A stretch of DNA of 64,000 bases, taken from assembly GCF_030815415.1 (NCBI RefSeq), contig NZ_JAUSWW010000001.1, positions 2,790,001-2,854,000 on the forward strand. Direction: 5' to 3'. The stretch is from Streptomyces canus. Lineage in GTDB: Bacteria > Actinomycetota > Actinomycetes > Streptomycetales > Streptomycetaceae. Shown here piece after piece: positions 41,545-61,998 of this stretch; position 1 is the first letter of the stretch; the number at the start of each line of letters is the position of its first letter. The notes below the pieces were generated by a model. It made no database searches. It saw only the letters and a program-made list of their open reading frames with translations, and was not told the origin of the DNA. The position numbers were made by a program, and so were the translations under genes.

Positions 41545-41545
41545 C

Positions 41546-42803: not shown

Positions 42804-42820
42804 CGGGGGGGGAGGGGTGG

Positions 42821-43443: not shown

Positions 43444-43974
43444 TCACCAGTCCGCCAGGTGGAGGGAGAGGAGCGGGTCGGGCAGGTCCAGTGCGGAAGC
43501 GGGGTGGGTGAAGGTGCGGTCGTAGTGGAGGAGCGGGGTGCGGTCGTCGTCCACATACGTCTCCACGACACGGCCCACGAGGATGCTGTGGTCTCCCCCG
43601 TCGAGTACGGCGTGCAGCGCGCAGGCGACGCGGGCGCAGGCGTCCGGCGAGCCGGGCAGGCCCCCTTCGCAGGGCTCCATGTCCCCCTCGGCGAACCGGT
43701 CGACGCCGGAGCGGGCGAAGGTGCGCGCGACCTGGTGCTGGCCGTGTGCGAGGAGGTTGACCAGGAAGCGGTCCGTGGTGGTGAACGCCCGGTGGGTGCT
43801 GGCGGCCTTGTTCAGGCAGACCAGGATCAGGGGCGGGTCCAGGGACAGGGACGTGAAGGAGGTCGCGGTAAATCCCCAGCGCCGTCCGTCGGTGTCCACG
43901 GTCGTGACGACCGTCACCGGTGCGGGCACCCGGGACATGGCGTGGGTCAGGGCACTGCCGGTCGTACCTTCCAT
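43444..43974 (-). CDS. NAD(P)H:flavin reductase (HpaC-like)
   Basis: 176 residues of the FMN-binding split-barrel reductase family (MSRVPAPVTVVTTVDTDG, GFTATSFTSLSLDPPLILVC, FLVNLLAHGQ). It should supply reduced flavin to a partner oxygenase, most likely the acyl-CoA-dehydrogenase-fold hydroxylase at the start of the same operon. The ATG with GGAGAG 10 nt upstream is preferred; a 38-residue Pro/Arg-rich extension is discounted. Confidence 0.9.
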   Translation of the reverse strand: MEGTTGSALTHAMSRVPAPVTVVTTVDTDGRRWGFTATSFTSLSLDPPLILVCLNKAASTHRAFTTTDRFLVNLLAHGQHQVARTFARSGVDRFAEGDMEPCEGGLPGSPDACARVACALHAVLDGGDHSILVGRVVETYVDDDRTPLLHYDRTFTHPASALDLPDPLLSLHLADW

Positions 43975-44642: not shown

Positions 44643-44654
44643 GGGAGTTCCTCG

Positions 44655-45488
44655 CTAGACGTAGAGGGTGCCGCGGGCGGCGACGACGCCGTGGCCGCCG
44701 ACCTCGACCGAGCGGACCGTCTCGCCGGTGCCCTCGGCGGTGGCGAGCATGAGGGACGGGCGGCCCATCTCGACGCCCTGGAGGATCTCCAACTGCTGTC
44801 CATAGGCGGCGAGTCGATGGCGGGCCAGATGGATGGCGAGGGGGCCGGCGGCGGAGCCGGTCGCCGCGTCCTCGACGACGCCGTAGGCGGGCGAGAACAT
44901 CCTGGTCCGCCAGTGGGTGCCCGCGCCGGCGAAGCAGTTGGCGGCCATGTCGGGGAACTCTCCGAGGGCGCGGTGGTCGGGCCGCAGCGCGGACAGCGCC
45001 GCGACGCTCCCGAGGCCGACGAGGACGTGCCGGGGGCCGTTGCGGTAGATCTCCACGGGCGCGACGGTGTCCTCGACGCCGAGTGCCGCGAGGAGTTCCG
45101 CACGGTGCTCGTACGGCTCCCAGGTGGGGATCGGCTGCCGCATCCGTACGGTCGTCACGCCGTCGTCGTCGGCGAGTTCGAACGGGACGACGCCCATGGC
45201 GGTCTCCAGCAGGAGCCGGTCCTCCTTGAGGGTCTCGCCGAGGGCCACCGCGGTGCCCAGCAGCGGATGGCCGGCGAACGGCAGCTCGTTGACAGGCGTG
45301 AAGATGCGGATACGGGCGTCCCCGCCCTGCTCCGGCGGCAGGACGAAGGTGACCTCCGAGAGGTTCATCTCCCGGGCGATGCGCTGCATCAGCTCGGCGG
45401 TCAGGTCGGCGGCGTCGAAGAAGACCGCCACGGGATTGCCTTCGAGCGGGCTGCGGGCGAAGGCGTCGACGACTAGGTATTCGTGCAC
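44655..45488 (-). CDS. phzF: PhzF, DHHA isomerase
   Basis: 277 residues. Glu45 (MNLSEVTFVLP) and His74 (LPFAGHPLLGTA) fall at exactly the numbers of the catalytic residues in characterised Pseudomonas PhzF; the matching Asp is in VEDAATGSAAG. It isomerises trans-2,3-dihydro-3-hydroxyanthranilate to the aminoketone that dimerises. The GTG at 45488 lies inside the end of the preceding small gene (16-bp overlap). Confidence 0.95.
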   Translation of the reverse strand: MHEYLVVDAFARSPLEGNPVAVFFDAADLTAELMQRIAREMNLSEVTFVLPPEQGGDARIRIFTPVNELPFAGHPLLGTAVALGETLKEDRLLLETAMGVVPFELADDDGVTTVRMRQPIPTWEPYEHRAELLAALGVEDTVAPVEIYRNGPRHVLVGLGSVAALSALRPDHRALGEFPDMAANCFAGAGTHWRTRMFSPAYGVVEDAATGSAAGPLAIHLARHRLAAYGQQLEILQGVEMGRPSLMLATAEGTGETVRSVEVGGHGVVAARGTLYV

Positions 45489-45859
45489 GGTTCGAGGTCC
45501 CCCGGATTCGATACGGCGGTTGCGGCGGAGGTCGTGAACACAGGTCCGGTTCCGTCGAGTTGGGGCAGCACAGGGGCGCCGCCCTCGACCGCGGCCTCGA
45601 CGTCGAAGCGGGTGCGGTGGGTGGGCGGGCCGCCGATGAGCTGCGCGGCCCGGTTGGGCGGCAGGTCGGCGGGGCGGTCGGTCTCCCAGAGCATCACCGC
45701 GCCCCACCGGTTGTGCTCCGGGTCGGCCATCCAGAACTTCAGGCGCAGACCCGGTACGTCGCGCCAGGCGGCGGCCGTGCCGTCGCTCAGGTGCTCCCGG
45801 AGGGAGTCGATGGTCTGTGGTGTGCCGTCCAGGTCCCACCAGGCGATGTCAACCCGCAC
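45473..45859 (-). CDS. Small YdhR/ABM-like monooxygenase-family protein
   Basis: 128 residues: [20 protein letters not shown], then LKFWMADPEHNRWGAVMLWE. This resembles the dimeric alpha-beta barrel YdhR family of putative monooxygenases. It is inserted between phzE and phzF, overlapping both genes (11 and 16 bp), so it is cotranslated with core enzymes. It is not a standard phz gene. A role as a cofactor-free oxygenase or as an aid in handling intermediates is possible but unproven. The GTG start has AGGAGG 9 nt upstream. Confidence 0.75.
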   Translation of the reverse strand: MRVDIAWWDLDGTPQTIDSLREHLSDGTAAAWRDVPGLRLKFWMADPEHNRWGAVMLWETDRPADLPPNRAAQLIGGPPTHRTRFDVEAAVEGGAPVLPQLDGTGPVFTTSAATAVSNPGDLEPCTNT

Positions 45860-47762
45860 GGCCGAGCACCTCCTGGATGGTGCGGCCCAGGATGCGCGGC
45901 CCGTCGACGGTCAGCACGGACTCGGCGTGGAACTGCATCGAGGCGAAGCCCGGTCCGCGCAGGGCGTGTACCTCGCCGGTGGCCGGGTCCCGGCTGACCT
46001 CGACGGCGCCGATCCCCGCGATGTCCTGCTTGTCCTCGTCGCTGCGGGCGGTGAACGTGTTGTAGAAGCCCACACGTTCACGGCCGCCGAACAGGTCGAT
46101 CTCCCGTTGCACGCCCTGGTTCGGGACGTCCCGGCGCACCAGGTCCAGGCCGAGGCCCAGACTGAGCACCTGGTGGCTCAGGCACACGGCGAGGAAGGGC
46201 CGTTGCTCCGCCAGCAGGCAGTCGATCGCCGAGCGCAGACTGCGGATCTTGGGGTCGTCCGCCGCCCGGGGGTCCCCAGGCCCTGGGCCCATCACGATGA
46301 GGTCGTGGCCACCGAAGGCGTACGGGTCGTCGAACTGACTGACCGACACCTTCAGTCCCAGAGACCGGAGTTGCAGCCCGATCATCGCGGTGAAGGTGTC
46401 CTCCGCGTCGATGATCAGGGCGCTCAGCCCCTCCAGTCCGGTCACCGCGGCCCGCCGCCCGGTGCCCCCGTCGAGCCAGAACCGGGCGATGTCGCTGTTG
46501 CGTCGGGTGAGGGCCGCGCAGACCTCGGGGTGGGTGCCGTACCGCCGGGTGCGGCCGCTCTCCAGGGCGCCGAGGAGACCGGCGGCCTTGGCCCGGGTCT
46601 CGGCGACCTCCGAGTACGGGTCGGAGTGGCGCACCAGCGTGGCGCCGACCCCGATGCTCACCCGGCCGCCGGGGTCGATGTCGGCGGTGCGGATGAGGAT
46701 GGCCGAGTCGAGGGCGCGCTCGCCGTTGCCGTCCCGGCCGATGAGGGCGGCCACCCCGCTGTAGTAACCGCGGCCCTCGGGCTCGTACTTGCGGATGATC
46801 CGCACCGCGCTCTCCAGCGGGCTGCCGGTGACGGTGGGGGCGAACAGCGTCTCGTGGAGCACCGCACGGACGTCCTGGTCGGTGCGTCCCTCGATGAAGT
46901 ACTCGGTGTGGGCCAGCCGGGCCATCTCCTTGAGGTACGGGCCGAGGACCCGGCCGCCGCCCTCGCAGATCCGGGCCATCATCTTCAGTTCCTCGTCGAC
47001 GACCATGTACAGCTCGTCGGTCTCCTTGCGGTCGGCGAGGAACTCGGTGACGCCGGCCAGCGTGGGACCGGCCGACGGATAGCGGTAGGTGCCGCTGATC
47101 GGGTTCATGACGGCGGCCCCGCCGTTCACCGAGATGTGCCGTTCGGGAGTGGCCCCGACGAAGGTGCGCTCCCCGGTGTGGATGACGAAGGTCCAGTACG
47201 CGCCCTGCTCCCGCTCCAGCAGCCGGCGGAAGAACACCAGCGCGTCACGGACCGAGTAGTCGCCGATGTCGGCCAGGAAGGACCGTTTGACGACGAAGTT
47301 GGCGCCCTCGCCGGTGCCGATCTCGTCCGCTACGACCCGGCGCACGGTCTCGGCGTACTGCTCGTCGTCGATGTCGAAGCCGAGGGCCGTCACGGAGGTC
47401 GGCGTGTCCGGGAGCCGCTGGAGGAGTTCGTTCAGCGGGACGCGGTCCTGGTCGGTGACGGACAGGGCGAGGAGGGGCGCGTCGTCCTCGGGGGCCGTGA
47501 AGCCGCGTTCGGTGATCTGCCGGTAGGGCACCACGACCAGGACGTCGTGCTCGGTCCCGGCGTCGCCGGGCGCGGGCGGGTCGGGGAGGGCGATGCCGGC
47601 CAGGGTCTTTGGCAGTGTGATGTCACCGACGAGGACGTCCACGGTGTCCGGGACGCCGCTCTCCGGGCGGTGCAGCAGGGCGAAGGCGGGCGCCTGGAGG
47701 TCGAGTACGCGGTCGAGCAGGTCGCCGGGGGTTCGGGGGTCCCGGCCGTGCGGCGCGTTCAT
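45849..47762 (-). CDS. phzE: PhzE, ADIC synthase
   Basis: 637 residues, the PhzE length. The N-terminal chorismate-utilising domain (about 1-400; [55 protein letters not shown]) is fused to a class I glutamine amidotransferase with the nucleophile Cys in [18 protein letters not shown] and His in [10 protein letters not shown]. It converts chorismate to 2-amino-2-deoxyisochorismate. The ATG overlaps the phzD stop. Confidence 0.96.
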
Positions 47763-48382
47763 ATGAACACCTCCCCGGACGGCAGGACGACCGCACAGCG
47801 CTCGGCGGCGTAGTCCAGGGCCAGTCGGTGATAGGCCTCGGAGAAGTCGCCGAGGGCGTCGGCGGCGAGGAAGGTCCGGATGTCGTGGGTGAACGCCTCC
47901 AACGCGGTGGCGAGGACGCCGACATGGGCGTACACCCCGCACAGCACGAGCTGGTCGCGGCCCGCTGCCCGCATCCGCTCCAGCAGGTCGGAGCGGAAGA
48001 AGGCGCTGTAGCGCCACTTGGTGAACACCCAGTCGTCCTCGGCGGGCGCGAGTTCCGGCACCACCTCGCGGTCGGCCGGGTCGGTGCGCATACCGGGGCC
48101 CCAGAAGTCCTTGAGCAGGCCGCGCTGTTCGTCGGTCATCCGGCCGGGCTGTGCCGTGTACGCCACCGGGACGCCGAGGGCGGCGGCACGCTTGCGCAAC
48201 GCGGCGGCGTTGTCGACCAGTTGGCCGCGCAGGGGGTCGGGCAGCGCCTGGAGGAAGTAGCGCTGCATGTCGTGGACGAGCAGGACGGCACGGTCCGGGT
48301 CCGGGGCCCAGTCCGCGAGGTTCTCGGGCAGGTCCTCGGCGGTGGGCAGCGGGTACGACGCGATGGGGGGCAGTCCGGGCAT
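47759..48382 (-). CDS. phzD: PhzD, isochorismatase
   Basis: 207 residues. Asp38 ([11 protein letters not shown]) and Lys122 ([10 protein letters not shown]) occupy the positions of the catalytic pair of PhzD; the nucleophilic Cys of other isochorismatase-fold hydrolases is replaced (CGVYAHVG), as expected. It hydrolyses ADIC to DHHA and pyruvate. ATG with GGGAG 9 nt upstream. Confidence 0.95.
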
Positions 48383-48429
48383 GGGATCGTCTCCCTTCCT
48401 GTGGGGTGGCGGCGTCGGCGGGGCGCGGT

Positions 48430-49614
48430 TCAGAGGGTGTTGGCCCAGGCCGTCACCAGGGACACGGCCTGCCGGGAGTTGAGGCGCGGGTCGCAGAACG
48501 TCGTGTGGCGCTCGCCGATCCGGCCGAGGGCCGAGGCGTCCGCGGCGCACTCCGTCACGTCGTCCGGGGTGGTCTCCAGATGGAGCCCGCCGGCCGTCCC
48601 GCCGGCCGCCGCGACGGCGAGGCCGAACCTCTGGACCTCGCTCGCCATGGTGGTCAGCAGCCGGGTCTTGCGGCCGCCGGGGGCGGTGATGGTGTTGCCG
48701 TGCATCGGGTCGCACAGCCAGATCACCGGGTGGCCCGCGGAGCGGACCGCCGTCACCAGGGCCGGCAGGCGCTCACCGACGGCGTCGGCGCCCATGCGGG
48801 AGATCAGGGTGAGGCGGCCGGGCTCGCGCAGCGGGTCGAGGCGCTCGCACAGCGAGGTGAGCTCCTCGGGCGTCATGCTCGGGCCGACCTTGCAGGCCAC
48901 CGGGTTGACCACATCGGACAGCAAGTCCATGTGGGCGCCGTCTAGTTGACGGGTGCGCTCGCCGATCCACGGCCAGTGCGTGGAGCCCAGCCAGCGGGTG
49001 GAGTCGCCGAGGTCGCGGACCATCGGGACCTCGTAGTCCAGCAGGAGCGCCTCGTGGCTGGTCCACACCAGGGGTTCGGCACCGGGCCAGGTGCGCAGGG
49101 CGGGGGCGCGCCAGCCCAGGTGTTCCATGATGTCGCCGGCCGCCATGTATCCGGTGAGGATCCGCAGCGGGTCGGGGCGCCGGCTCTCGGGGCAGGGCAC
49201 CGGGCTGTTGACCATGTGCCCGCGGTAGACGGGCAGGGCCAGGTCGCCGATCTGCTCGAAGTCGTTCGAGCGGGGCTTGGCGAACTGGCCGGCCATCCGT
49301 CCGACGCGCAGCACGGGCTTGCCGGTGAGCATCTTCAGGGTGCTGGCGAGCAGGTCGAGCACGGCGGTCTTGCGCCGCACATGGCCGGCCGTGCACTCCT
49401 GCGGGTCTTCGGCGCAGTCGCCCGACTGCACGACGAGCGCCTCCCCCGCGGCCACGGAGGCGAGCCGCGACCTCAGGGTGTGGACGTCGTCGACGCGGAC
49501 CAGCGGTGGACGGGAACTGAGGATCTCCCGTACCCGCTGGACCTGGGCGGGGTCGGGCCATTCCGGCTGCTGGAGCGCCTTGGCCCGCTGGATATCGGTG
49601 AGTGCTTGTGCCAC
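48430..49614 (-). CDS. phzC: PhzC, class II DAHP synthase
   Basis: 394 residues of the plant-type DAHP synthase family ([69 protein letters not shown]). Catalyses the first shikimate-pathway step, raising flux to chorismate. GTG start with GGGGG about 8 nt upstream. Between phzB and phzD in the usual order. Confidence 0.94.
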
Positions 49615-49684
49615 GACAGTGCCCCCGTGGAGCGGAGAGGATTTACTTTCGGGTGATGGCAGGCCGCGTGTGCGGGTCCGCACG

Positions 49685-50164
49685 TCAGGTGGGAATTCCC
49701 TCGCGCTCGACGCGCGGTACGTCGATTCCCAGGGCCCGGAACTGCTGGCAGGGGTTCATGAACTCGCGCTGCTGTTTTATTTTCCCGTTCTCGAAAAGGA
49801 ACGAGTGCAGGAAGTGGTTGCGGTAGTACCCGTCGGGATATCCGGGAAAAAGTATCTTTCCCTCTCCGTCGCATTCGACCCAGAAGCGGTCGGGGTCCTG
49901 GGAGTCGAAGATCTCGACGTTGGTCCAGGCCCAGTCGGGGAAGCACTTGAGCGACCAGACGGCGTGCTCGCCCAGCCGGTCGCGGCCGTGGATGACGATC
50001 GGCTCGCCGCTCTCGGTGGTCCACAGACCGCCGGTGCCGTCCTCGGTGAACAGCAGGTGGCGCCGGAGCCGGTCCTCGCCGCGGGTGTTCATGTACTGCT
50101 CCACGATCGCCCGGTTGTGGGCGCGCGATTCGTCCTGGTCGGCGGGTATTCGGGGGTCAGACAT
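49685..50164 (-). CDS. phzB: PhzB (PhzA/B family)
   Basis: 159-residue cone-shaped NTF2-like protein that catalyses condensation of two aminoketone molecules into the tricyclic phenazine precursor. A conserved Glu lies in KQQREFMNPCQQFRALGID and a His in the HFLHSFLFENGKI segment. Only one A/B gene is present, the usual case outside Pseudomonas. ATG with GGGGG-type upstream spacing after the hydroxylase gene. Confidence 0.95.
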   Translation of the reverse strand: MSDPRIPADQDESRAHNRAIVEQYMNTRGEDRLRRHLLFTEDGTGGLWTTESGEPIVIHGRDRLGEHAVWSLKCFPDWAWTNVEIFDSQDPDRFWVECDGEGKILFPGYPDGYYRNHFLHSFLFENGKIKQQREFMNPCQQFRALGIDVPRVEREGIPT

Positions 50165-50217: not shown

Positions 50218-51441
50218 TCAGACGATGAAGCTGATCTCGCGGGGGTCGCCGCCGACGAGGGCCCGGCCGTAGACCTGTTCGGGGATGCCCATCCCGAAGC
50301 CGGCGTGCCGGCTGCCCACGTTGATGTCGCGCCAGAGCCGCTGCAGGGGGTTGGACTCGTTGAAGGCGGAGGAGCCGTGGGCGGTGAGCAGGGTGTCGAC
50401 GGCCTCCCGGCACAACCGGCCCACCTGCGCGGACTCCAGCCGGTTGCGGGCGCGGACGGTGAGGTCGGCGTTGACGCCGGCCCGGGCGAGCTCGTCGACG
50501 GTGTCCGCGATCCGGCCGGCCACCAGCTTGGCCGTGTCGATCTTCGAGGTGGCGTCGGCGAGGTCGAGCTGGAAGGTCGGCGACTGGGTCTGGTCGCGGT
50601 AGGTGGAGCCGGCCACCGGGCGGGTGGGGCCCTTGTCCCGGACGAACTCCAGGGCCGCTTCGGCAGCGCCGATCAGGGCGCCGATCAGCCCGATGGCGAA
50701 CAGCCCGGTCAGGCTGTTGCGGTAGGGCAGCGCCGGGTCGACGATGCCGTCGGTCTCGCCGTTGAGGACGGGCAGGTAGGGCACCAGCCGGTGCTCGGGT
50801 ACGAAGATCCGGTCGGCGACGACGGTGTTGCTGCCGGTACCGCGCATGCCGGCGAAGTACCAGGTGTCCTTGACGGCGACCTCGTCGGTGGGCATCAGGG
50901 CGAAGCGCACGTCGGGGCGGCCCGCGTCGGTGGGGACGGCGATCAGGGCGCTGACCCACTGGGCGTGCAGACAGCCGGAGACATAGGCCCACTCGCCGCT
51001 GACGATCACACCGCCGTCGACCGGCTCCACGGCCGGTGAGGGCATCCCGAGGACCAGCGCGCACCGGGCGTCTGGGTCGTCGCCCCAGATCTCGTCGCCG
51101 GCCCGGGCCGGGAACAGCGCGGCCATGAAGTTGCCGGCGTTCAGGACGCCCGCGATCCAGGCGGCGGACGGGCAGCCCCTGCCGAGCGTCGTGGCGACGT
51201 CGAGGAGGGTGCGCATGTCCGTCTCGTGGCCGCCGAGCCGGCGCGGGGTCTGCAGCCGCAGCAGTCCGGCCTCGGTCATGGCGTCGACGACCCGGTCGGA
51301 AAGGCGTCGGTCGCGCTCGCACTCGACGGCCTCCGCCCACAGGAGTTCCCGCAGACCTTCGGCTCGCGTGACGAGTTCCGCACGGTCGGGAATCAGCCCT
51401 TCGCGGGTGGCCGGATCGGCGGGGACCGTATTGTTCGACAT
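50218..51441 (-). CDS. Acyl-CoA-dehydrogenase-fold flavin-dependent hydroxylase
   Basis: 407 residues of the group D monooxygenase type (HsaA/HpaB-like acyl-CoA dehydrogenase fold): LRLQTPRRLGGHETDMRTLL, GCPSAAWIAGVLNAGNF, SGEWAYVSGCLHAQW, and ARNRLESAQVGRLCREAVD. These use reduced FMN or FAD from a separate reductase, here probably the 43444-43974 flavin reductase, to hydroxylate aromatic rings. AAAGGA precedes the ATG. Immediately upstream of phzB, so phenazine ring hydroxylation is likely. Confidence 0.87.
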   Translation of the reverse strand: MSNNTVPADPATREGLIPDRAELVTRAEGLRELLWAEAVECERDRRLSDRVVDAMTEAGLLRLQTPRRLGGHETDMRTLLDVATTLGRGCPSAAWIAGVLNAGNFMAALFPARAGDEIWGDDPDARCALVLGMPSPAVEPVDGGVIVSGEWAYVSGCLHAQWVSALIAVPTDAGRPDVRFALMPTDEVAVKDTWYFAGMRGTGSNTVVADRIFVPEHRLVPYLPVLNGETDGIVDPALPYRNSLTGLFAIGLIGALIGAAEAALEFVRDKGPTRPVAGSTYRDQTQSPTFQLDLADATSKIDTAKLVAGRIADTVDELARAGVNADLTVRARNRLESAQVGRLCREAVDTLLTAHGSSAFNESNPLQRLWRDINVGSRHAGFGMGIPEQVYGRALVGGDPREISFIV

Positions 51442-51553: not shown

Positions 51554-52954
51554 TCAGTGCGACCGAATGGGGCGGCGCCTTCGCGGGTGAAGATTTCCGC
51601 GCACGACCCGGCCGAGGGTGACGGGGTTCAGGAGGATCAGGGGCGCGGAGAGCAGGGAGCTGACCTTGACGAACTCCTGGGCGACGACCGGGTCCTGCTC
51701 GGCGGCGGTGAGCACCGCCCCGAAGAAGGCGTTGCTCAGCCGCACCGGCAGCGGGCGGTCCCCCTCGACCTGGGGGAGGGCCAGGTCGCTGCCGACGGCC
51801 ATCTGCCAGGCCACCTCGATCCTGCGGGCGGCAGCCCGGAAGAAGCGGTACGCCAGCCGGTCGCGTCCGTGGCCGAGACACTCCCGCAGGACGTCGGCCT
51901 GAAGCGCGGCCACCGACATGCCCTGTCCGTAGACGGGGTTGAAGCTGCAGATCGCGTCGCCGAAGACCAGCAGCCCGTCGGGGAACCGCTCCAGCCCCTC
52001 GTACCGTCGGCGCACGCTGGCCGGGTAGCGGTGGGCGACCGGGGCGTCGAGGGGTTCGGCGGCGCACAGGGCCTCGAAGACGTCGGAGGGCAGGATGGGC
52101 TTGGCGAACTCCAGGAAGTCGCCGGGGTCGGTGGGCGGGTGGTGGCCGCCGTAGCCGATCAGGGTGAGCATCCAGCGGTCCGGTTCGTGCTGGAGGAAGG
52201 TCGCGCCGGTCGGCCGGCCGGGCTCGGCGCCCACGATCACGACCTTGCGGCGGCCGAGGGCGCCCGGGGCGAGGCGCAGGGTGCGGCTGACGTACTTGAT
52301 ATCGACGGCGATCCGGTCCTCGCGCGGGGGTTCGTGGCCGAGGTCGGTGAGCCAGCGGGTGGTGCGGCCGCCCCGGCCGGTCGCGTCGACCACGAGGTCG
52401 GCGGTCAGCTCGCGTTCCGCCCCGCTGTCGCGGTGCACCAGCCGGACGCCGGTGACGCGGGTCCCGTCGGGGGTGCTCAGCAGTCCGGTGGCCTCGCACC
52501 GGTCGACGATCTCCACGCCGGGCAACTCCCGTACCCGGGCCCGTACTCCCCCTTCCAGTTGGGGCCGGGTCGGCTGGTAGGTGGGGGTGGGGTCGGCGTA
52601 ACGCCCTTCCTGGCACAGGAGGTGGCCGCCGGGTGCGAAGTGCATCTCGGTGGGTTCGCGGACCACGGGGACGCCGGCCGCCTCGAAGTACTCGAGCAGA
52701 CCGGGGAACATCTCCTGCAGTCCCCGGGTGCCGGCGGGCAGGATCGCGTGGGCGTGCCGTCCCTGTGGCACTCCGCGCCGGTTCTCGTCCGTCGTCGGCA
52801 GCGTGTCCCGGTCGACCACCGTGACTCGGGCGAACGTCTCGTACAGCACCCGGGCGGCGAAGAGGCCGGCGATGCTGCCCCCGAGCACCACGCAGTGGCC
52901 GTCGCGGGGGCGCCGCCCCTCGGGGGCGTGCGGGTGTGCGGTGTCGTCAGACAT
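51554..52954 (-). CDS. FAD-dependent aromatic monooxygenase
   Basis: 466 residues of the single-component FAD monooxygenase family. Rossmann motif GGSIAGLFAARVL, the central DATGRGGRT motif and the flavin ribitol motif GDAICSFNPVYGQGMSVA are intact. It would hydroxylate or oxidatively modify the phenazine core or a carboxyl-bearing position. ATG with GAGGA upstream. First gene of the minus-strand phenazine operon; 112 bp separate it from the next hydroxylase. Confidence 0.9.
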   Translation of the reverse strand: MSDDTAHPHAPEGRRPRDGHCVVLGGSIAGLFAARVLYETFARVTVVDRDTLPTTDENRRGVPQGRHAHAILPAGTRGLQEMFPGLLEYFEAAGVPVVREPTEMHFAPGGHLLCQEGRYADPTPTYQPTRPQLEGGVRARVRELPGVEIVDRCEATGLLSTPDGTRVTGVRLVHRDSGAERELTADLVVDATGRGGRTTRWLTDLGHEPPREDRIAVDIKYVSRTLRLAPGALGRRKVVIVGAEPGRPTGATFLQHEPDRWMLTLIGYGGHHPPTDPGDFLEFAKPILPSDVFEALCAAEPLDAPVAHRYPASVRRRYEGLERFPDGLLVFGDAICSFNPVYGQGMSVAALQADVLRECLGHGRDRLAYRFFRAAARRIEVAWQMAVGSDLALPQVEGDRPLPVRLSNAFFGAVLTAAEQDPVVAQEFVKVSSLLSAPLILLNPVTLGRVVRGNLHPRRRRPIRSH

Positions 52955-53273: not shown

Positions 53274-54122
53274 TCAGTGGCGTGCTCCGCTGCGCGTCGC
53301 GGTCGCCAGCCAGCAGGCCGGGAGCGGTGCCACCGTGCGCCCGTGGCCGATCCGCGGGTCGTCGCCCGCGTACACCCGGGCCGACCAGCCGTGGCCGTCG
53401 AGCCATTCCTCCAGGTCGTCGCGGGCCGAGAGCCAGCGGGCGCCCTGCTCCTCGACACGTTCACGCACGGGCCTGCCCTCCTCCTGGAGCATGGCCGCCT
53501 TGAGGTGCTCCAGCATGAGCGTGCTGCCCGGCGCGGACAGTGCGCTCAGACCGGCGAGGAGCGCCTCCCCGTCCCCGTCCGTGAGATACATGAGCAGCCC
53601 CTCGACCAGCCAGACGGTCGGCTGCCCGGGGTCGAAACCCGCAGCTCGCAGGGCGGACTGCCAGTCCTCGCGGAGGTCGGCCGCGACCCCGTGACGCTCA
53701 CAGGCGAGGGGCAGCCCGGAGTGGGCGATCAAGGCGTCCTTGAACTCCGTCATCTCCGGCAGCTCGACCTCGAACCAGTGGACTCCGGCCGGCAGGTCGA
53801 GGCGTACGGTACGGCCGTCCGCGCCGGCGGCGAGGGTGACGACCTGCCGGACGCCACCCCGGACCCCGGTCAGGATCTCCTCGTCGAAGAACCTGGTCCG
53901 CACCGCGAAGTAGGTGGGGAAGCCCCGCGCGCTGTGGTGGGTCTGCCGGATCACCTCGGCCACATCGGCCAGGACCGGGTCCTCGGAGAGCGCGGAGAGC
54001 AGCGCGACGGCGAGGGGATCCCGGAACAGCGCATCCGGACGTTCACTTTCCATTTGTCGCATCCACGCGATGAACAGTGCGGTCTGCCCGACTCCGACGG
54101 AGGGCGCCTTCACTTCCATCAT
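53274..54122 (-). CDS. PPM1-type SAM-dependent methyltransferase
   Basis: 282 residues of the leucine carboxyl methyltransferase-like (TcmP/PPM1) family: SVGVGQTALFIAWMRQ at the start, RTRFFDEEI, VVTLAAGADGRTVRLDLP (SAM loop), WFEVELPEM and VWLVEGLLMYL. Members methylate carboxylates or hydroxyls; an ester on a phenazine carboxylate or an O-methyl are both possible. GGGAGGA lies 4-7 nt before two consecutive ATGs. Divergent from the Lrp regulator, and an obvious consumer of the SAM-supply genes. Confidence 0.87.
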   Translation of the reverse strand: MMEVKAPSVGVGQTALFIAWMRQMESERPDALFRDPLAVALLSALSEDPVLADVAEVIRQTHHSARGFPTYFAVRTRFFDEEILTGVRGGVRQVVTLAAGADGRTVRLDLPAGVHWFEVELPEMTEFKDALIAHSGLPLACERHGVAADLREDWQSALRAAGFDPGQPTVWLVEGLLMYLTDGDGEALLAGLSALSAPGSTLMLEHLKAAMLQEEGRPVRERVEEQGARWLSARDDLEEWLDGHGWSARVYAGDDPRIGHGRTVAPLPACWLATATRSGARH

Positions 54123-54323: not shown

Positions 54324-55343
54324 ATGCTGGACGACCTGGACCGCGCGCTGATCCACGCGTTGCACATCGACGGCCGGGCACCTTTCAGCCAGATCGCCGC
54401 CGCCCTCGACGTCTCACCGCAGACCGTCGCCCGTCGCTACCGCCGGCTGCGCACCGAGGCGTCCTTACGAGTCGTGGGCCTGCCGGACCCTCATCAGGCG
54501 GGTCAGACACAGTGGCTCGTCCGGCTCACCGCGGCGGCCAGCTCCGCACAGGACCTGGCCCATGCACTCGTGCGCCGGCAGGACACCTCATGGGTGAAGC
54601 TCACCTCCGGCGGCACCGAGATCGTCGCGATCATCCACACGCCGACCGACGCCGCCGCGGGCAACTCCCTGCTGCTGCGCGACATTCCGCGCACCAACCA
54701 CATCACCGCGGTATCCGCGCACTGCATCCTGCACACCTACCTCGGCGGGCCGACGAACTGGCGGCGCAGCGCCGACACGCTGGACGAGGACCAGCAGCGG
54801 CTGCTGCGCGAGCACGAACCGGCCGACACCTCGTACGTGCCCGTGCCGCGCCGGCTCACCGACGCCGACACCGATCTGCTGGTCGCCCTGCAGAAGGACG
54901 GCCGGGCCACCCACGCGGAGCTGGCCCAGGCGACCGGCTGGTCCCCGGTCACCGTGGCGCGACGGCTCGCGGATCTGCAGGCGGGCGGTGCCGTCTTCTT
55001 CGACGTCGAGGTGGACACCGGGCAGTTCGGCGCCAACACCCGGGCGCTGCTGTGGATGTCGGTGAGCCCGGCGCACATCGAGAACGTGGCGACGACCCTG
55101 GCCCGCCACGACGAACTGGCGTACGTCGCCGCGACCACGGGCCCCACCAACCTGGTCGCCCAGGCCCTCTGCCGCGACCCCGCCGACCTCCACCACTACC
55201 TGGCCCGGCGCCTGGGCTCCCTGGACGCCATCCACACCCTGGAGACCAGCCCGGTCCTCCAGAACCTCAAGGCGGCGAGCCCCATCATCACGGAACGGGA
55301 ACGCACGAGACGCGCCGCGACGCCGGGGCGGGTACGGAACTGA
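54324..55343 (+). CDS. Lrp/AsnC-family regulator with duplicated HTH (TTA-containing)
   Basis: 339 residues with two Lrp-like units: HTH at about 5-50 (LIHALHIDGRAPFSQIAAAL) and a second HTH at about 190-235 (LLVALQKDGRATHAELAQAT), each followed by an AsnC-type ligand-binding region. Leu48 is encoded by TTA (54465-54467), so translation may depend on the bldA tRNA. ATG with AAGGA 7 nt upstream. A clear paralogue lies at 61012-61998. Probably the pathway-specific regulator. Confidence 0.9.
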   Translation: MLDDLDRALIHALHIDGRAPFSQIAAALDVSPQTVARRYRRLRTEASLRVVGLPDPHQAGQTQWLVRLTAAASSAQDLAHALVRRQDTSWVKLTSGGTEIVAIIHTPTDAAAGNSLLLRDIPRTNHITAVSAHCILHTYLGGPTNWRRSADTLDEDQQRLLREHEPADTSYVPVPRRLTDADTDLLVALQKDGRATHAELAQATGWSPVTVARRLADLQAGGAVFFDVEVDTGQFGANTRALLWMSVSPAHIENVATTLARHDELAYVAATTGPTNLVAQALCRDPADLHHYLARRLGSLDAIHTLETSPVLQNLKAASPIITERERTRRAATPGRVRN

Positions 55344-55478: not shown

Positions 55479-56930
55479 CTAATGACCCGCCCCGGCACCA
55501 CCCGCCGCGTCCCGGTCCACCATCGACCGGCTGGTGACGAAGCTGACCACGACCAGCGCCGCGGCGACCCAGAACGCGAGCTGGACGGCGTGCAGGGCGC
55601 CCGGGGCGCCGCCGTCGCCCGCGCTGCCCAGGTACACGCTGCCGAGGATCGCCACCCCGAGCGTGGCGCCCAGTTGCTGGACCGCGTTCAGCAGACCGGC
55701 GGCCGAGCCGATCTCCTGCGGCTGGAGCGGGGCGAGGGCGATGGTGAAGAACGCCGGGCTGAACAGGCCCACGCCGACGCCGACGACCCCGAGTGCGAAC
55801 AGCAGCGGCGTCGGATACCGGTGCGGGTCGGCCGCGTGGTAGACGGCGATCGCGGCGAGGGAGCCGGCCAGCAGGACGGCGAGGCCGAGGGACATCATGC
55901 GGTGGCCGTACCGCTTGACGAGGTGGGCGCCGGCCACCCAGGAGGCGACGGCGAGGCCCACCGACCACGGGGCGAGCGTCAGGCCGGACTTCAACACGTC
56001 GGTGCCCAGGCCGAGTTGGAGCTGGAGGACGATGACCATCATCAGTCCGTTGGTGACGGCGAAAAAGGCCGTGGACGTCACCAGGGCGGCCGGGAAACCG
56101 CGGTGGGCGAACAGGCTCGGCTCCACCAGCGGACTGCGCCCCGCGGCGGCCACCGCCCGCTGGTGCACCGTGAACAGGACCATCAGGCACAGCCCGGCCG
56201 CGATGGCCGCCCAGCTCCACCCGGACAGGGCGATCAGGTCGGCGCCGATCAGCGGGTAGACGACGAGCCCGATGCCGGCCATCGCCAGCAGGGTGCCGGT
56301 GACATCGAGGGTGGGCCGCTTGGGCGCCCGGTTCTCCATCAGCTTGGGCGAGATCGCCAGCACCAGCAGCGACACCGGCACGTTCACCAGGAACGCCGCG
56401 CGCCACGAGGAGCCGAACAGGTCGGCGTGGGTGAGCACCCCGCCGAGCACCGGCCCGCAGACGGCCGCGAGGCCCATCACGGGACCGATACTGCCCAGTG
56501 CCTTGGACATCTCGGGGCCGGCGAACATCGTCTTGATCAGGCCGATGGTCTGGGGGATGATCACGGCCGCCGCGGCTCCCTGTACCACCCGGAAGGCGAT
56601 CAGCAGCCCCACCGAGGGCGCTGCGGCGCAGGCGGCCGACGCGACCATGAAGCCGGTGACACCGATCACGAACAGCCGCTTGCGGCCCGCGATGTCGCCC
56701 AGCCGGCCGCCGGTGATCAGCAGCACCGCGAACGGCAGGGTGTAGGCGGTCGTGAACCACTGGATGTCGGACACCGACCCGCCCAGATCGGCATGGATCC
56801 TGGGCGCGGCGACCTGCACGATCGTCGCGTCCAGCAGGTTCATGGCCTCACCGAGCAGCAGGGCGGTGAGCGCCGGCCACCGCCATCGGTACGCCGTGGG
56901 TGTCGGCGTCAGCACACGCTCAGCAGTCAT
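55479..56930 (-). CDS. DHA2-family MFS drug efflux transporter
   Basis: 483 residues, about 14 membrane helices. Family motifs: LLDATIVQVAAPRIHADLGG in helix 1, GGRLGDIAGRKRLFVIGVTG between helices 2 and 3, and a GPVLGG motif in helix 5. A proton-driven exporter likely giving self-resistance and secretion of the phenazine. ATG with GAGAGGA upstream; a 66-residue upstream extension is discounted. The C-terminal tail is Gly/Ala-rich. Confidence 0.93.
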   Translation of the reverse strand: MTAERVLTPTPTAYRWRWPALTALLLGEAMNLLDATIVQVAAPRIHADLGGSVSDIQWFTTAYTLPFAVLLITGGRLGDIAGRKRLFVIGVTGFMVASAACAAAPSVGLLIAFRVVQGAAAAVIIPQTIGLIKTMFAGPEMSKALGSIGPVMGLAAVCGPVLGGVLTHADLFGSSWRAAFLVNVPVSLLVLAISPKLMENRAPKRPTLDVTGTLLAMAGIGLVVYPLIGADLIALSGWSWAAIAAGLCLMVLFTVHQRAVAAAGRSPLVEPSLFAHRGFPAALVTSTAFFAVTNGLMMVIVLQLQLGLGTDVLKSGLTLAPWSVGLAVASWVAGAHLVKRYGHRMMSLGLAVLLAGSLAAIAVYHAADPHRYPTPLLFALGVVGVGVGLFSPAFFTIALAPLQPQEIGSAAGLLNAVQQLGATLGVAILGSVYLGSAGDGGAPGALHAVQLAFWVAAALVVVSFVTSRSMVDRDAAGGAGAGH

Positions 56931-57321: not shown

Positions 57322-58344
57322 ATGACAGTCCTGCCCGCCACCCAGCGAGAAGTCCGCCTCCTCACCAAGCCGACCGGGCTGCCCCAGCCGGAGCACTTCG
57401 TCGTGGTCGAGAGCCCCGTCGTACCGCCCGGCGTGGGCGAGGTACTGGTGCGCAACCGGTTCTTCCATGTCTTCGCCACCCTGCGCATCCTCATCGCGGG
57501 CGCCACCCAGGACACCCCGTTCCCGGTGCTCGACGCCGGCGACACCCTGGTGGGCGCGGCGATCGGCGAGGTCGTCGAGGCCCCCGCGGGCAGCGGCCTG
57601 TCGCCGGGCGACCTGGTCTCGCACTGGCTGGGCTGGCGCGAGTACGCCGTGGTTCCGGCCGCCGAGTGCACCCGCCTGGACCCTGCGGTGCTGCCGGATC
57701 CGGTCGCCCATCTGCAGCAGGGCTGGACGGCGTACGCGGCACTGACCCGGGGCGTGGAACTGCGGCCCGGGGACACGGTGTTCGTCACCGCGGGAGGCAG
57801 CGGCATCGGTTCGATGGCCGGGCTGATCGCCCGCCGACTGGGGGCCGGACGGGTCGTCGCCAGTGCCGGTTCGCCACAGAAGGCCGAGCGGCTGCGGACC
57901 GAACTCGGTTACGACGCCGTGGTGGTGCGGGGCGCGGGCCCGCTCGCGGAGCAGCTGGCGCAGGCGGCGCCCGGCGGGATCGACGTCTGTTTCGACAATG
58001 TCGGCGGGGAGCAACTGCGCGCGGCCGTGGACGCGGCGCGGCCGGGCGCCCGGTTCGTGCTGGTCGGTGCGTTGTCCGGGCAGTTGGACGCGGCCGGCCC
58101 TGGCACCGCGGCACCCGTGGAGCTGGACTCGCTGCCGCTGATCCACAAGCGGATCGAGATGCGCGGCTTCAGCTCCGACGACTACGACGACAAGGACGAG
58201 TGGACCGAGCGGTTCGGCGCCTGGCTCAGAGCGGGGGAGATCACCTTCCCCCATGTGCGGGTCAAAGGCATCGAGAACGGCCCACGGACTCTGCTGGAGG
58301 TGATCGAGGGACGCCACATCGGCGCCGTCGTCGTCGAGCTGTGA
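57322..58344 (+). CDS. MDR-family NADPH oxidoreductase (alkenal/quinone reductase-like)
   Basis: 340 residues of the medium-chain zinc-independent reductase family (2-alkenal / 15-oxoprostaglandin 13-reductase branch). N-terminal QREVRLLTKPTGLPQPEHF; nucleotide-binding motif VTAGGSGIGSMAGLIARRLG; catalytic-domain GWTAYAAL. It would reduce an activated double bond or quinone using NADPH. AGGAG precedes the ATG. The gene ends inside a 12-bp tandem repeat that contains several in-frame stops. Cotranscribed with the EhpF-like and LuxC-like genes. Confidence 0.9.
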   Translation: MTVLPATQREVRLLTKPTGLPQPEHFVVVESPVVPPGVGEVLVRNRFFHVFATLRILIAGATQDTPFPVLDAGDTLVGAAIGEVVEAPAGSGLSPGDLVSHWLGWREYAVVPAAECTRLDPAVLPDPVAHLQQGWTAYAALTRGVELRPGDTVFVTAGGSGIGSMAGLIARRLGAGRVVASAGSPQKAERLRTELGYDAVVVRGAGPLAEQLAQAAPGGIDVCFDNVGGEQLRAAVDAARPGARFVLVGALSGQLDAAGPGTAAPVELDSLPLIHKRIEMRGFSSDDYDDKDEWTERFGAWLRAGEITFPHVRVKGIENGPRTLLEVIEGRHIGAVVVEL

Positions 58345-58442: not shown

Positions 58443-59543
58443 GTGCCGCGTTCCGCCACCGAGATCCTCGATCTCCCCCTCGATGTCCGGCCGGAGCCGG
58501 ACGAGTTGATCCGTGCCGCGATGCAGTGGCACTTCGATCCCGACACGGGGTCGCCGTTCTGGCTGGAGCAGGCCAAGAGCCTGCCCTTCGATCCGCTCAC
58601 CGACGTCCGCAACCACGCGGACCTCACGCTGTTCCCGCCGCTGACGGCCGAGCTGCGGGACGTGCCCGCACAGGACCTCGTGCCGCGCGGATACGGCCAA
58701 CGCCCCGATGTCGTGGGGGTGTTCGAGAGCGGCGGCACCACCGGCGCGCCCAAACGTGTGGTCCTGCTGCGGGACTGGCTGGAGCGGATGCTCCACTGGA
58801 GCAATCTCAACCTCGACGCCCACGGCTTCCCGCGGGACGTCGACTGGCTCGGCCTTGTACCGACAGGGCCGCACATCGTCGGCGAGTACTTCCGCAGGTC
58901 CGCGGCGACCCACGGGCGGTACGGCTTCACCCTCGACCTCGACCCGCGGTGGGTGAAGAAGCTGATCGCCGCCGGGCGCCGGGCCGACGCGGACGCCTAC
59001 GCCGAACACCTCGTGGACCAGGCCGCGTTCGTGCTGCGCACCCAGGACATCGGTGTCCTGACGGTCACTCCGCCGCTGCTCGAACGCATCGCCCGGCGGG
59101 ACGACCTGGCCGAGCTGGTCAACGAGAAGGTACGGGCGATCCGCTGGGGCGGCACCCAGCTCGACCCCGACTCCCGGTACCTCTACAAGACCGAGGTCTT
59201 CCCCGACACCGTCCTGTGCGGAAACTACGGCAGCACCATGATCCTGGGCTTCGCGGGCGAGCGCCCCGGGCTGCCGGACGACGCGGGCTGCGTCTTCGAC
59301 CCGTACAGCCCGTACGTCATGTTCTCCGTCGTCGACCCCGAGACGCTGCGCCCGGTCGGGTACGGGGACCGCGGCCGGGTCCTGGTGCACCACGTCAGCA
59401 AGTCGTTCTTCCTGCCCAACAACCTGGAGCGGGACACGGCGACCCGGATCGAGCCGCTCGACGGGCGGGCAGGGGACGCGGTGGCCGACATCGCACCCGT
59501 GGCGACCTTCGAGAACGAGGCCGTGATCGAGGGCGTGTACTGA
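58443..59543 (+). CDS. EhpF-like adenylating enzyme (atypical ANL/PaaK-like)
   Basis: 366 residues, short for an ANL enzyme and close to EphF-type size (EhpF of the Pantoea griseoluteate pathway is about 369). The phosphate-binding motif is SGGTTGAPK (96-104). The C-terminal domain is truncated relative to full acyl-CoA ligases, as in EhpF and LuxE-like proteins. Likely activates a phenazine carboxylate for reduction by the next gene product. The GTG start has GGAG 5 nt upstream. Its stop overlaps the next ATG (TGATG). Confidence 0.82.
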   Translation: MPRSATEILDLPLDVRPEPDELIRAAMQWHFDPDTGSPFWLEQAKSLPFDPLTDVRNHADLTLFPPLTAELRDVPAQDLVPRGYGQRPDVVGVFESGGTTGAPKRVVLLRDWLERMLHWSNLNLDAHGFPRDVDWLGLVPTGPHIVGEYFRRSAATHGRYGFTLDLDPRWVKKLIAAGRRADADAYAEHLVDQAAFVLRTQDIGVLTVTPPLLERIARRDDLAELVNEKVRAIRWGGTQLDPDSRYLYKTEVFPDTVLCGNYGSTMILGFAGERPGLPDDAGCVFDPYSPYVMFSVVDPETLRPVGYGDRGRVLVHHVSKSFFLPNNLERDTATRIEPLDGRAGDAVADIAPVATFENEAVIEGVY

Positions 59544-60928
59544 TGGCCGGGACCGGCTCCGAGGTGGTGCCGCTCGACGCCCTGGGTGCCCGGGGGGCGT
59601 ACCGGGCCCGCAGCCGGCTGTCCGTGACCGATGTCGCGGGCCGGGAGAGCGCCGAACTCAGCCTCGTACCCGCGCTGTTCGTCGACCGGACGCTGAAGGC
59701 CCTGCACGGGGCCGTGTCCCCGCTGCCCGACGAGCGGATCGGCATGATCGGCCGGGCCGCCGCGCTCTTCGAGAGCGGCACGCTCGACGGCCTGACGCCC
59801 GAGGCCTACGCCCACCGGGTCAGCCGGGTCGGCGGCACGCCGATCTCCGTGGTACGGGCCACCGTCACGGCCATCGCGACGCGGCTGCGCACGGCCCACC
59901 ACAGCGTGGAGCAGGCGCGGCCGACGGGCGCGGTGCACCGGTGGGACGATCCGCTGACCCGCGCCGGACGCGCGGTGTGGGTGCGGCGCGGGAACGTGTT
60001 CGCGGTGCACGCGGCGGGCAACCATCCCGGGCCGCACAGCCTGTGGCCGGAGGCGCTCGCGCTGGGCTACCGGGTCGCCGTACGCCCGTCCCGGCGCGAG
60101 CCGTTCACCCCGCACCGGCTGGTCACCGCACTGCGCGCGGCCGGCTTCGGCGACGACCAGGTGGCGCTGCTGCCGACCGACCACACGACCGCGGACGCGC
60201 TGCTGCGGGGCGCCGATCTCGGGCTGGTGTACGGCGGCGAGGACGTGGTGCGCAAGTACGCCGGGGATCCCTCCGTGCTGCCGCAGGGTCCGGGCCGGTC
60301 GAAGATCCTGCTGACCCGGGAGGTGGACTGGCGGGAGCATCTCGACACGATCGTCGCCTCGGTGAGCGGCCACGGCGGCACGGGCTGCGTCAACACGACG
60401 GCCGTGCTCGTGGAGGGCGACCCCGCCCCGCTGTGCGCCGCGCTCGCCGAACGGCTGGCGGCCGTGCCGAGCCTGCCGCCCGAGGACCCCGCCGCGGTCT
60501 TCCCCGTGCAGCCGCTCGCCACCGCCAAGGCGCTCGAAGCCCATCTGCTGCGCCGGGCGAAGGGTGCCAGGGCGTGGCTCGGCGGCGACGGCGTCCTGGA
60601 CGAACTCGGCGACGGCAGCGCCGTCCTGCGGGCCGCCGTCCACCAGCTCGACGGGCCCGGCGCCCCGCAGACGGCGGTGGAGCTGCCGTTCCCCTGTGTG
60701 TGGGTCGCGCCCTGGACGCGCGAGGCCGGTGCCGGGCCGCTGCGGGACTCCCTGGTCCTCACGGCGATCACGCACGACGACCGGCTGGTGGCCGAACTCG
60801 TCGAGGAGCCCTCGATCGGCAACGTGTACGTGGGCGACCATCCGACGTACCGGATGGAGGCGGGGCTGCCGCACGACGGCCACCTCGCCGACTTCCTGAT
60901 GCGCTGCAAGTCGGTGATCCGGGACTGA
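59543..60928 (+). CDS. LuxC/EhpG-like acyl reductase (aldehyde dehydrogenase superfamily)
   Basis: 461 residues of the LuxC-type acyl-CoA/acyl-AMP reductase branch. The catalytic Cys282 lies in SGHGGTGCVN and an NAD-site Asn in VHAAGNHPGPHS. With the preceding adenylating enzyme it should convert a carboxyl group to an aldehyde, as proposed for EhpF/EhpG in griseoluteate formation. Translationally coupled to that gene by TGATG. Confidence 0.85.
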   Translation: MAGTGSEVVPLDALGARGAYRARSRLSVTDVAGRESAELSLVPALFVDRTLKALHGAVSPLPDERIGMIGRAAALFESGTLDGLTPEAYAHRVSRVGGTPISVVRATVTAIATRLRTAHHSVEQARPTGAVHRWDDPLTRAGRAVWVRRGNVFAVHAAGNHPGPHSLWPEALALGYRVAVRPSRREPFTPHRLVTALRAAGFGDDQVALLPTDHTTADALLRGADLGLVYGGEDVVRKYAGDPSVLPQGPGRSKILLTREVDWREHLDTIVASVSGHGGTGCVNTTAVLVEGDPAPLCAALAERLAAVPSLPPEDPAAVFPVQPLATAKALEAHLLRRAKGARAWLGGDGVLDELGDGSAVLRAAVHQLDGPGAPQTAVELPFPCVWVAPWTREAGAGPLRDSLVLTAITHDDRLVAELVEEPSIGNVYVGDHPTYRMEAGLPHDGHLADFLMRCKSVIRD

Positions 60929-61011: not shown

Positions 61012-61998
61012 ATGCTCGACGAACTCGACCGCGCCCTGATCCACGCGCTGCACATCGACGGACGCGCCTCCTTCACCCAGCTGGCGGCCGTCCTGGAGGT
61101 GTCCCCGCAGACCGTCTCGCGGCGCTACGAGCGGCTGCGCGAGCAGGCGGCGCTGCGGGTCGTCGGGCTGCCCGACCCTCAGCTGACAGGGCATGAGCAG
61201 TGGCTGCTGCGGCTGACCGCCGAGCCCGAGACCGCCCTGGACCTCGCCCACGCCCTGGTGCGCCGCGCGGACACCTCGTGGGTGTATCTCACCGGCGGCG
61301 GCACCGAGATCGTCGCCGTGCTGGAGACTCCGCTGGGCATGGCGCACGGGCACTCGCTGCTGCTGCACGAACTGCCGCCCAGTGTGGGGCTCACCGCCGT
61401 CTCGGCCCATCACCTGCTCCACACCTATCTGGGCTGGCGCACCCCCTGGCGGATGAGCGCCAACGCCCTGACCGCACGGCAGCAGCGGATGCTGGTCGGG
61501 GCGAGGCCGCCCGAGCGCCACGACCAGGTGCAGCTCTCCCCCGCCGACCACGCCCTGCTGGACGCGCTACGACGGGACGGCCGGGCCGGTGTCGCCGAGC
61601 TCGCCGTCGACACGGGCTGGTCCCCGGCGACGGTCTCGCGCCGCCTTGACCATCTGCGCGCCTGCGGGACGGTCTTCTTCGACATCGAGATCGACCCGGC
61701 GCTGCTGGGCGGCAGCGTCCGGGCCCTGCTGTGGATGGCGGCCGCCCCGGCCCATCTGGACGAGGTGGCGACCGCCCTCGCCGGCCACGACGAACTCGCC
61801 TTCGTGGCCCACACCACCGGACCCACCAACCTCGTGGCACACGCCCTGTGCCCGGACACCGCGGCCCTCTACCAGTACCTCACCCACGGCCTGGGAGCGG
61901 TGAAGGCGATCCGCACCCTGGAGACGGCCCCGGTACTGCGCACCCTCAAGGCCGTCGGCCCGATCCGCCCCCCGGGACCGCCGGGTCGCCGGGGCTGA
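61012..61998 (+). CDS. Lrp/AsnC-family regulator with duplicated HTH (second paralogue)
   Basis: 328 residues, similar along its whole length to the 54324-55343 regulator (both begin MLD-LDRALIHALHIDGRA), with two HTH/AsnC units. The Leu corresponding to the TTA-coded residue in the paralogue is CTG here. ATG used by analogy; an in-frame GTG two codons upstream at 61006 has better spacing from AAGG. It follows the LuxC-like gene by 83 bp on the same strand, so it may be controlled with the reductase genes. Confidence 0.88.
   Translation: MLDELDRALIHALHIDGRASFTQLAAVLEVSPQTVSRRYERLREQAALRVVGLPDPQLTGHEQWLLRLTAEPETALDLAHALVRRADTSWVYLTGGGTEIVAVLETPLGMAHGHSLLLHELPPSVGLTAVSAHHLLHTYLGWRTPWRMSANALTARQQRMLVGARPPERHDQVQLSPADHALLDALRRDGRAGVAELAVDTGWSPATVSRRLDHLRACGTVFFDIEIDPALLGGSVRALLWMAAAPAHLDEVATALAGHDELAFVAHTTGPTNLVAHALCPDTAALYQYLTHGLGAVKAIRTLETAPVLRTLKAVGPIRPPGPPGRRG

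Follow-up and report, generated by a model that had tools for sequence, protein, structure and literature searches.

What do the two overlapping genes at positions 58443–60928 of a 64,000-nt stretch of Streptomyces canus (contig NZ_JAUSWW010000001.1, positions 2,790,001 to 2,854,000; hereafter the window) make? They encode an adenylating protein and a reductase, related to EhpF and EhpG, respectively, beside a set of phenazine (phz) genes. An earlier note, made from the sequence alone, had predicted that they produce a phenazine aldehyde, as a Streptomyces parallel to EhpF/EhpG of the Pantoea griseoluteate pathway. Our comparisons indicate with high probability that the pair is a two-component aryl carboxylate reductase of a lomofungin-type cluster, making a phenazine aldehyde, and the chemistry advanced in that note is thus very likely right. 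The locus as a whole is a close copy of the published lomofungin cluster and, as such, largely ordinary.

The gene pair and its products

The stop codon of the first gene and the start codon of the second have one base in common (tacTGATGgcc; Table 1), and both genes display a strong Streptomyces coding signal, with a GC content at third codon positions of 0.93 (58443–59543) and 0.95 (59543–60928). Among 44 related loci having both genes, 31 share this 1-nt overlap, so the coupling of the pair is not due to chance; the other 13 loci show a different spacing (8), the EhpG-like gene in first place (3) or the two genes on opposite strands (2). The translational coupling that had been proposed therefore stands, and both reading frames lie where the earlier note had placed them.

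A phmmer search of the PDB with the 366-aa product of the first gene retrieved EhpF (3l2k/3hgu; E 2.1e-77), aligned with residues 20–366 and reaching the last residue of the EhpF chain, and the next match had an E value of only 0.35. The match to the Pfam AMP-binding family was weak (28.4 bits, for a cut-off of 29.9), and neither an ANL C-terminal domain nor a carrier domain was found on either protein of the pair by the Pfam scan and the PDB alignment. Since the alignment with EhpF runs to the last residue of both proteins, the short C-terminus is native and not the result of a frameshift, which bears out the original description of an ANL-like protein with a truncated C-terminus. The protein contains the motifs WHF..TGSPFWL, ESGGTTGAPK, YGST and a terminal EGVY; residues E363, G364 and Y366 are invariant in the 16 EhpF-like sequences aligned, and the copy from S. 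lomondensis JCM 4866 is 90% identical.

The 461-aa product of the second gene had been labeled LuxC-type, which had to be abandoned. The protein matched Pfam family PF00171 (Aldedh) with 38.6 bits (cut-off, 23) and did not match PF05893 (LuxC) at E ≤ 1. The latter model identified two other places in the same genome, the pair locus not being among them, and is not narrow, having matches also in 9 of 14 control genomes. An AlphaFold2 model of the protein (pLDDT 82.6) resembled aldehyde dehydrogenase (ALDH) folds, the best of them with Z 35.9 over 429 residues and a root mean square deviation of 2.9; no LuxC chain was among the fold matches listed, which excludes nothing by itself. Taken together, the lack of a PF05893 match, the ALDH Pfam family and the predicted ALDH fold led us to reject a kinship with LuxC. 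The copy from S. lomondensis JCM 4866 is 87% identical, and homology to EhpG from Pantoea was evident by tblastn (E 1e-49, 32% identity over 93% of the query).

In alignments to ALDH chains, C282 of the reductase coincides with the nucleophilic Cys and N160 with the oxyanion Asn. Residue C282 is invariant in 19 of 19 and in 14 of 14 aligned members, and a Cys occupies this column in all 44 rows of the set used for the tree (see below), in agreement with the intact Cys seen earlier; N160 is invariant in 14 of 14 aligned members, with an Asn in 43 of the 44 rows. The general-base Glu of ALDHs (ELGG motif) faces P247 in one alignment, and column 247 or a gap in another, and none of the 44 rows has a Glu in the P247 column. 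These data bear on the idea that the EhpG-like protein is an ordinary oxidizing ALDH that detoxifies a phenazine aldehyde, as its ALDH fold and its PF00171 match above the cut-off would allow. The absence of the general-base Glu argues against hydrolysis of an acyl-enzyme and, together with the tandem coupling to an adenylating enzyme, makes such a role extremely unlikely.

A lomofungin-type cluster and the proposed reaction

The gene order of the lomofungin cluster of S. lomondensis S015 (lomo1–17 and lphzGFEDCB; PMC4549113) is that of window positions 37891–61998, except for lomo3: a phz core in the order G-F-E-D-C-B is flanked by the lomo1–8 and lomo9–17 positions, minus lomo3 and plus a 128-aa open reading frame (ORF), between phzE and phzF, that does not appear in the published table. 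Strain S015 was compared through this table, which gives shorter lengths for lomo15 (340 aa), lomo16 (435 aa) and lphzD (111 aa), and identities were measured against S. lomondensis JCM 4866. The window genes g38–g48 have the same order and orientation in JCM 4866, with 85–93% protein identity, and positions 37069–50000 are collinear with a DNA identity of 84–88%. At window position 39700, between the genes for chorismate synthase and methylenetetrahydrofolate reductase (MTHFR), JCM 4866 has ca. 1.3 kb extra (lomo3 of the table) with an ORF that resembles 5-enolpyruvylshikimate-3-phosphate (EPSP) synthase, as judged by eye only; the alignment with Streptomyces sp. NRRL S-646 leaves no room for an EPSP-synthase-like ORF either. 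The g38–g48 order was also found in the latter strain, S. glaucescens NRRL B-2706, S. pyxinicus and Streptomyces sp. NBC_01214, and thus 5 of the 19 loci found with the 366-aa protein in GTDB genomes are collinear, including that of JCM 4866.

Lomofungin is 1-carbomethoxy-6-formyl-4,7,9-trihydroxyphenazine. The cluster paper describes it as a carbomethoxy, formyl (6-formyl), trihydroxy phenazine and states that it derives from phenazine-1,6-dicarboxylate (PDC) (PMC4549113). Given that the cluster in the window follows the lomofungin order, and that there is a formyl group at C-6 of lomofungin itself, the product to be expected is a phenazine aldehyde, as the earlier note had it. Gene lomo10 encodes the C-7 hydroxylase of lomofungin, and its mutant produces 1-carbomethoxy-6-formyl-4,9-dihydroxyphenazine (PMC4549113); since this is still a 6-formyl compound, the aldehyde is present before C-7 hydroxylation. 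The Streptomyces version of carboxylate reduction on a phenazine that had been put forward as new is not so, because lomofungin and its cluster were already published and the same pair appears in the gene table from 2015, with lomo15 as “EsmB1” and lomo16 as “Aldehyde dehydrogenase” (PMC4549113). Each of the two genes is mentioned once in that publication, in the gene table only, and its text contains no word beginning with “Ehp”.

In the reaction that we propose, the EhpF-like protein would use ATP to convert one carboxyl of PDC, or of a derivative such as an ester or a hydroxylated form, to an acyl-adenylate, and the acyl group would be handed directly to Cys282 of the EhpG-like protein, because the adenylating protein has no C-terminal domain with which to load CoA or a carrier protein. 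A nicotinamide cofactor would then reduce the thioester on Cys282 to the aldehyde. The combination of an ALDH without the general-base Glu and an adenylating partner without a transfer domain suggests this path from acyl-AMP through acyl-Cys to aldehyde. The product would be 6-formylphenazine-1-carboxylate, which may then be methyl-esterified by the enzyme encoded at 53274–54122 and hydroxylated by those encoded at 50218–51441 and 51554–52954, yielding lomofungin, whose production by this strain of S. canus is thus predicted from sequence. EhpF- and EhpG-like genes also adjoin in phz clusters from Pantoea, Burkholderia and an Escherichia coli plasmid. In the work on the EhpF structure, deletion of ehpF reportedly led to accumulation of PDC, and EhpF/EhpG are said to have been proposed to make 6-formylphenazine-1-carboxylate.

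The adenylating protein could, on the other hand, activate PDC for chain extension, with the ALDH-like protein in a side role, and an activation of this kind has reportedly been proposed for EsmB1 and saphenic-acid-type pathways. In favor of this possibility, EsmB1 of S. antibioticus is the best named match of lomo15 in the published table (PMC4549113), and the pair of B. ubonensis (see below) adjoins ketosynthase and carrier-protein genes. However, the published lomofungin table lists no ketosynthase or carrier protein, and none turned up in the Pfam scan, which covered 12 of the 23 cluster genes. The formyl group of lomofungin, moreover, has a single carbon and is no extended chain, and conservation of the 1-nt overlap speaks for a joint action of the two proteins, so that chain extension is very unlikely here. 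It is also highly improbable that the aldehyde is only an intermediate to a hydroxymethyl phenazine of the griseoluteate type, with the MDR gene at 57322–58344, directly upstream of the pair, supplying a second reductase: the gene order is that of a cluster whose end product bears a formyl group and which itself includes an MDR gene (lomo14).

Several observations weigh against assigning the reduction of a phenazine carboxylate to the pair. For the conversion of PDC, the published text names only “Lomo9 and Lomo11 et al.” and lomo10 (PMC4549113), and the literature matches listed, which cover few subscription journals, included no report of a mutant, of expression or of an assay for either lomo15/16 or the window pair. 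Membership in the family does not by itself name the substrate, because 61 of 72 Streptomyces pairs are not near PhzA/B, and the acyl group activated by the B. ubonensis pair may be extended and not reduced, given the neighboring genes. Additionally, Pantoea EhpG is only 30–33% identical to the window protein, one of the 44 rows has V in place of N160, and in two archaeal rows a Glu precedes the ALDH Glu position by one column, so that the lack of the general base is less certain for these two.

Other genes of the cluster

Gene calling identified 50 genes in the window, 23 of them in 37891–61998 (Table 1). Apart from the genes covered by the Pfam scan, phzB was recognized by PF03284 and the rest by plasmid homologs, position and collinearity. 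Among the supply genes, MTHFR, PfkB and FMN_red were assigned by Pfam, and the other three by the published order and collinearity with JCM 4866. Homologs of the core genes are annotated as PhzA/B, isochorismatase, anthranilate synthase family, PhzF and PNPOx-type on plasmids from Pantoea, Burkholderia or E. coli.

Table 1. Features of the lomofungin-type cluster and their coordinates in the window.
Feature	Coordinates	Strand	Basis or details
Supply genes: shikimate kinase, chorismate synthase, MTHFR, PfkB kinase, S-adenosylmethionine (SAM) synthetase, FMN reductase (lomo1, 2, 4–7 positions)	37891..43435	-	
Flavin reductase, lomo8 position, possible partner of the lomo9-type oxygenase	43444..43938	-	PF01613, E 1.3e-42
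Phenazine core phzG-F-(128-aa ORF)-E-D-C-B	44004..50164	-	Homologs on annotated plasmids; PF03284, E 1.5e-84 (phzB)
Acyl-CoA-dehydrogenase-like oxygenase, lomo9 position, candidate C-4/C-9 hydroxylase	50218..51441	-	PF08028
FAD monooxygenase, lomo10 ortholog	51554..52954	-	PF00890, PF01494; 85% identity to the S. lomondensis JCM 4866 copy
SAM methyltransferase, leucine-carboxyl-methyltransferase family, lomo11 position, methyl-ester candidate	53274..54122	-	PF04072, E 2.7e-49; TIGR00027 above cut-off
AsnC/Lrp-type regulator, lomo12 position	54324..55343	+	PF13404, PF01037
Transporter, lomo13 position, start uncertain	55479..56843	-	Position; collinear in 5 loci
MDR-family reductase, lomo14 position	57322..58344	+	PF16884, PF00107
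Putative EhpF/GriC-type acid-adenylating protein, lomo15/“EsmB1” ortholog, without ANL C-terminal domain	58443..59543	+	366 aa, GTG start
TGATG stop/start overlap, 1 nt, coupling the adenylating and reductase genes	59541..59545	+	
Putative EhpG/GriD-type acyl reductase, aldehyde dehydrogenase superfamily, lomo16 ortholog	59543..60928	+	461 aa, ATG start
AsnC/Lrp-type regulator, lomo17 position	61012..61998	+	Position in lomo table; collinear ortholog in 5 loci

The oxygenase in the lomo9 position matched two NCBIfam models, both below their cut-offs: NF045629 (HsaA, E 5e-68) and NF045920 (p-hydroxyphenylacetate hydroxylase, E 8e-55). Its candidacy for the C-4/C-9 hydroxylations rests on this likeness to two-component flavin hydroxylases and on the presence of a flavin reductase in the cluster; the authors of the lomofungin study pointed to P450s encoded elsewhere for these steps (PMC4549113). 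The methyltransferase in the lomo11 position belongs to the leucine-carboxyl-methyltransferase family (PF04072) and therefore fits the methyl ester. According to PMC9150181, the ester likewise probably comes from this methyltransferase, and the trio of SAM synthetase, PfkB and MTHFR is taken to supply cofactors. The NCBIfam model nearest to the MDR reductase was that of curcumin reductase, with a score far below its cut-off.

The 128-aa ORF between phzE and phzF (45473–45859, minus strand) did not match any Pfam or NCBIfam model, and has homologs in six other phz loci (L007, L008, L010, L023, L047 and L048). The Proteus phz operon encodes a hypothetical protein in the equivalent position, which has been described as probably belonging to the core phenazine proteins, with a function yet unknown (PMC11278526).

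Relatives of the pair

The relationships of the pair were examined in a tree of concatenated pairs (44 rows, 828 columns). Its rows came from loci L003–L048 (46), leaving out L020, where the EhpF-like gene is split in two ORFs, and L021 and L025, without EhpG. Rows were designated phz-linked when their 10-kb flanks contained PhzB, or at least two of PhzB/D/E/F; this rule was set after the first tree and moved five lomofungin-type loci, with only PhzB in their flanks, out of the class without phz, their synteny being known before the tree. The window fell inside a six-row lomofungin clade (support 100/100) nested in a 14-row clade (100/99), 13 rows of which were phz-linked; the exception, from Parafrankia (L011), lies on a contig that ends ca. 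2.7 kb past the EhpF match. The phz-linked pairs occupied two branches, Streptomyces/Burkholderia and Pantoea/E. coli plasmid, and a single clade for all 15 phz-linked rows was rejected by the approximately unbiased test (p 0.016), a result made less firm by long end branches (L022, L041 and L046) and by the relabeling after the first run. The window pair is thus kin of EhpF/EhpG, in the same families, and appears to lie on a branch separate from the immediate branch of Pantoea, and the parallel drawn with the Pantoea proteins holds for kinship (E 2e-77 and, by tblastn, E 1e-49) and not for membership in that branch.

EhpF/EhpG from Pantoea agglomerans, of the pathway for D-alanylgriseoluteic acid, resemble the window pair in their families, tandem order, 1-nt overlap and adjoining phz core, with identities of 37–39% for EhpF and 30–33% for EhpG; nevertheless, the Pantoea operon continues with genes for a short-chain dehydrogenase/reductase, an AMP-binding protein and an acyl carrier protein, without counterparts in the lomofungin gene list. 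In the grixazone pathway of S. griseus, according to PMC10179220, GriC adenylates 3-amino-4-hydroxybenzoate and GriD then reduces it to the aldehyde. GriC/GriD differ from the window pair in substrate and cluster, and their likeness to it is suggested by a gri-type pair of the same families (L031), which stands in for the S. griseus proteins here. The first protein of that pair matched EhpF with E 8e-66, and its neighbors, which include genes for a Streptomyces antibiotic regulatory protein (SARP), MelC1, tyrosinase, dehydroquinate synthase II, DeoC aldolase and aspartate kinase, were taken as a probable grixazone-type set. The fatty acid reductase LuxC/LuxE also proceeds from an acyl-adenylate through an acyl-Cys to an aldehyde, as proposed for the window pair, whose reductase differs in belonging to the ALDH family and lacking a PF05893 match. 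Carboxylic acid reductases with a phosphopantetheine carrier domain convert an acid to the aldehyde with ATP and NADPH, whereas in the window pair the activities lie on two separate proteins, the reductase is of the ALDH type, and both an ANL C-terminal domain and a carrier domain are missing.

Related pairs are also present on plasmids. The Burkholderia ubonensis plasmid pMSMB2035 (L023), typed as conjugative, carries a phz/ketosynthase cluster with a pair whose products are 64% and 58% identical to those of the window, and transfer between phyla is likely. The E. coli O170:H18 plasmid NZ_CP076707 (positions 1–23044) contains a phz core, an EhpF/EhpG-like pair and a nonribosomal peptide synthetase gene, with gene lengths matching those of the Proteus mirabilis BL95 cluster (PMC11278526). 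In a Streptomyces plasmid (L027:9941–16026) there is a pair beside genes for 3-deoxy-D-arabino-heptulosonate 7-phosphate synthase and aminodeoxychorismate synthase, and these neighbors suggest a substrate of the aminobenzoate type; S. goshikiensis plasmids have pairs similar to that of L027. Another Streptomyces plasmid (L025:8938–10020) has an EhpF-like “arylcarboxylate reductase”, with no EhpG partner detected, between the 1,4-dihydroxy-6-naphthoate synthase gene and mqnE. Haloarchaeal plasmids from Halalkalicoccus and Halomarina (L028 and L029) also contain EhpF/EhpG-like pairs, that of Halalkalicoccus beside a sodium:solute symporter gene. The S. canus genome itself has a second pair (10366295–10368747; L030:9781–12275), with ketol-acid reductoisomerase and sigma-factor genes among its neighbors and no phz genes in the 19.9 kb examined.

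Profiles built from 16 EhpF-like and 14 EhpG-like sequences (E ≤ 1e-20 and 1e-30) were used to search 295 Streptomyces genomes, and matches were found in 82 (EhpF) and 73 (EhpG) of them. We retained 90 EhpF places; for 72 of them, spread over 69 genomes, an EhpG place occurred no more than 6.5 kb away, and in 52 of these 72 pairs both genes were on one strand with EhpF directly upstream. The pair count excludes four fragment EhpF rows (G009, G111 C38, G153 and G237), two fragment EhpG rows (G009 and G237) and eight PhzA/B rows of 28 bits or less, and includes three short EhpG matches (G085, G093 and G163 C133). Of the 72 pairs, 11, including the window pair, had a strong PhzA/B match on their contig at a distance of up to 40 kb; the PhzA/B search covered 79 of the 82 genomes in which EhpF was matched, and draft contig ends can hide a phz core.

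It may be, with the probabilities evenly balanced, that EhpF/EhpG (GriC/GriD) are widespread carrier-free, two-protein aryl carboxylate reductases in which acyl-AMP made by an ANL enzyme devoid of the C-terminal domain goes directly to the Cys of an ALDH partner lacking the Glu, with phenazines as minority substrates, most Streptomyces pairs, the Frankia/Nocardia pairs and those of haloarchaeal plasmids reducing other acids, and phenazine use recruited twice. To what was published on the lomofungin cluster, these results add lomo15/lomo16 as proposed enzymes for the formyl step, left open in the text of the cluster paper, and they place EhpF/EhpG of Pantoea and the grixazone-type reductases in one broader family. 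With so few of the Streptomyces pairs near PhzA/B, the pair by itself is no marker of a phenazine pathway.

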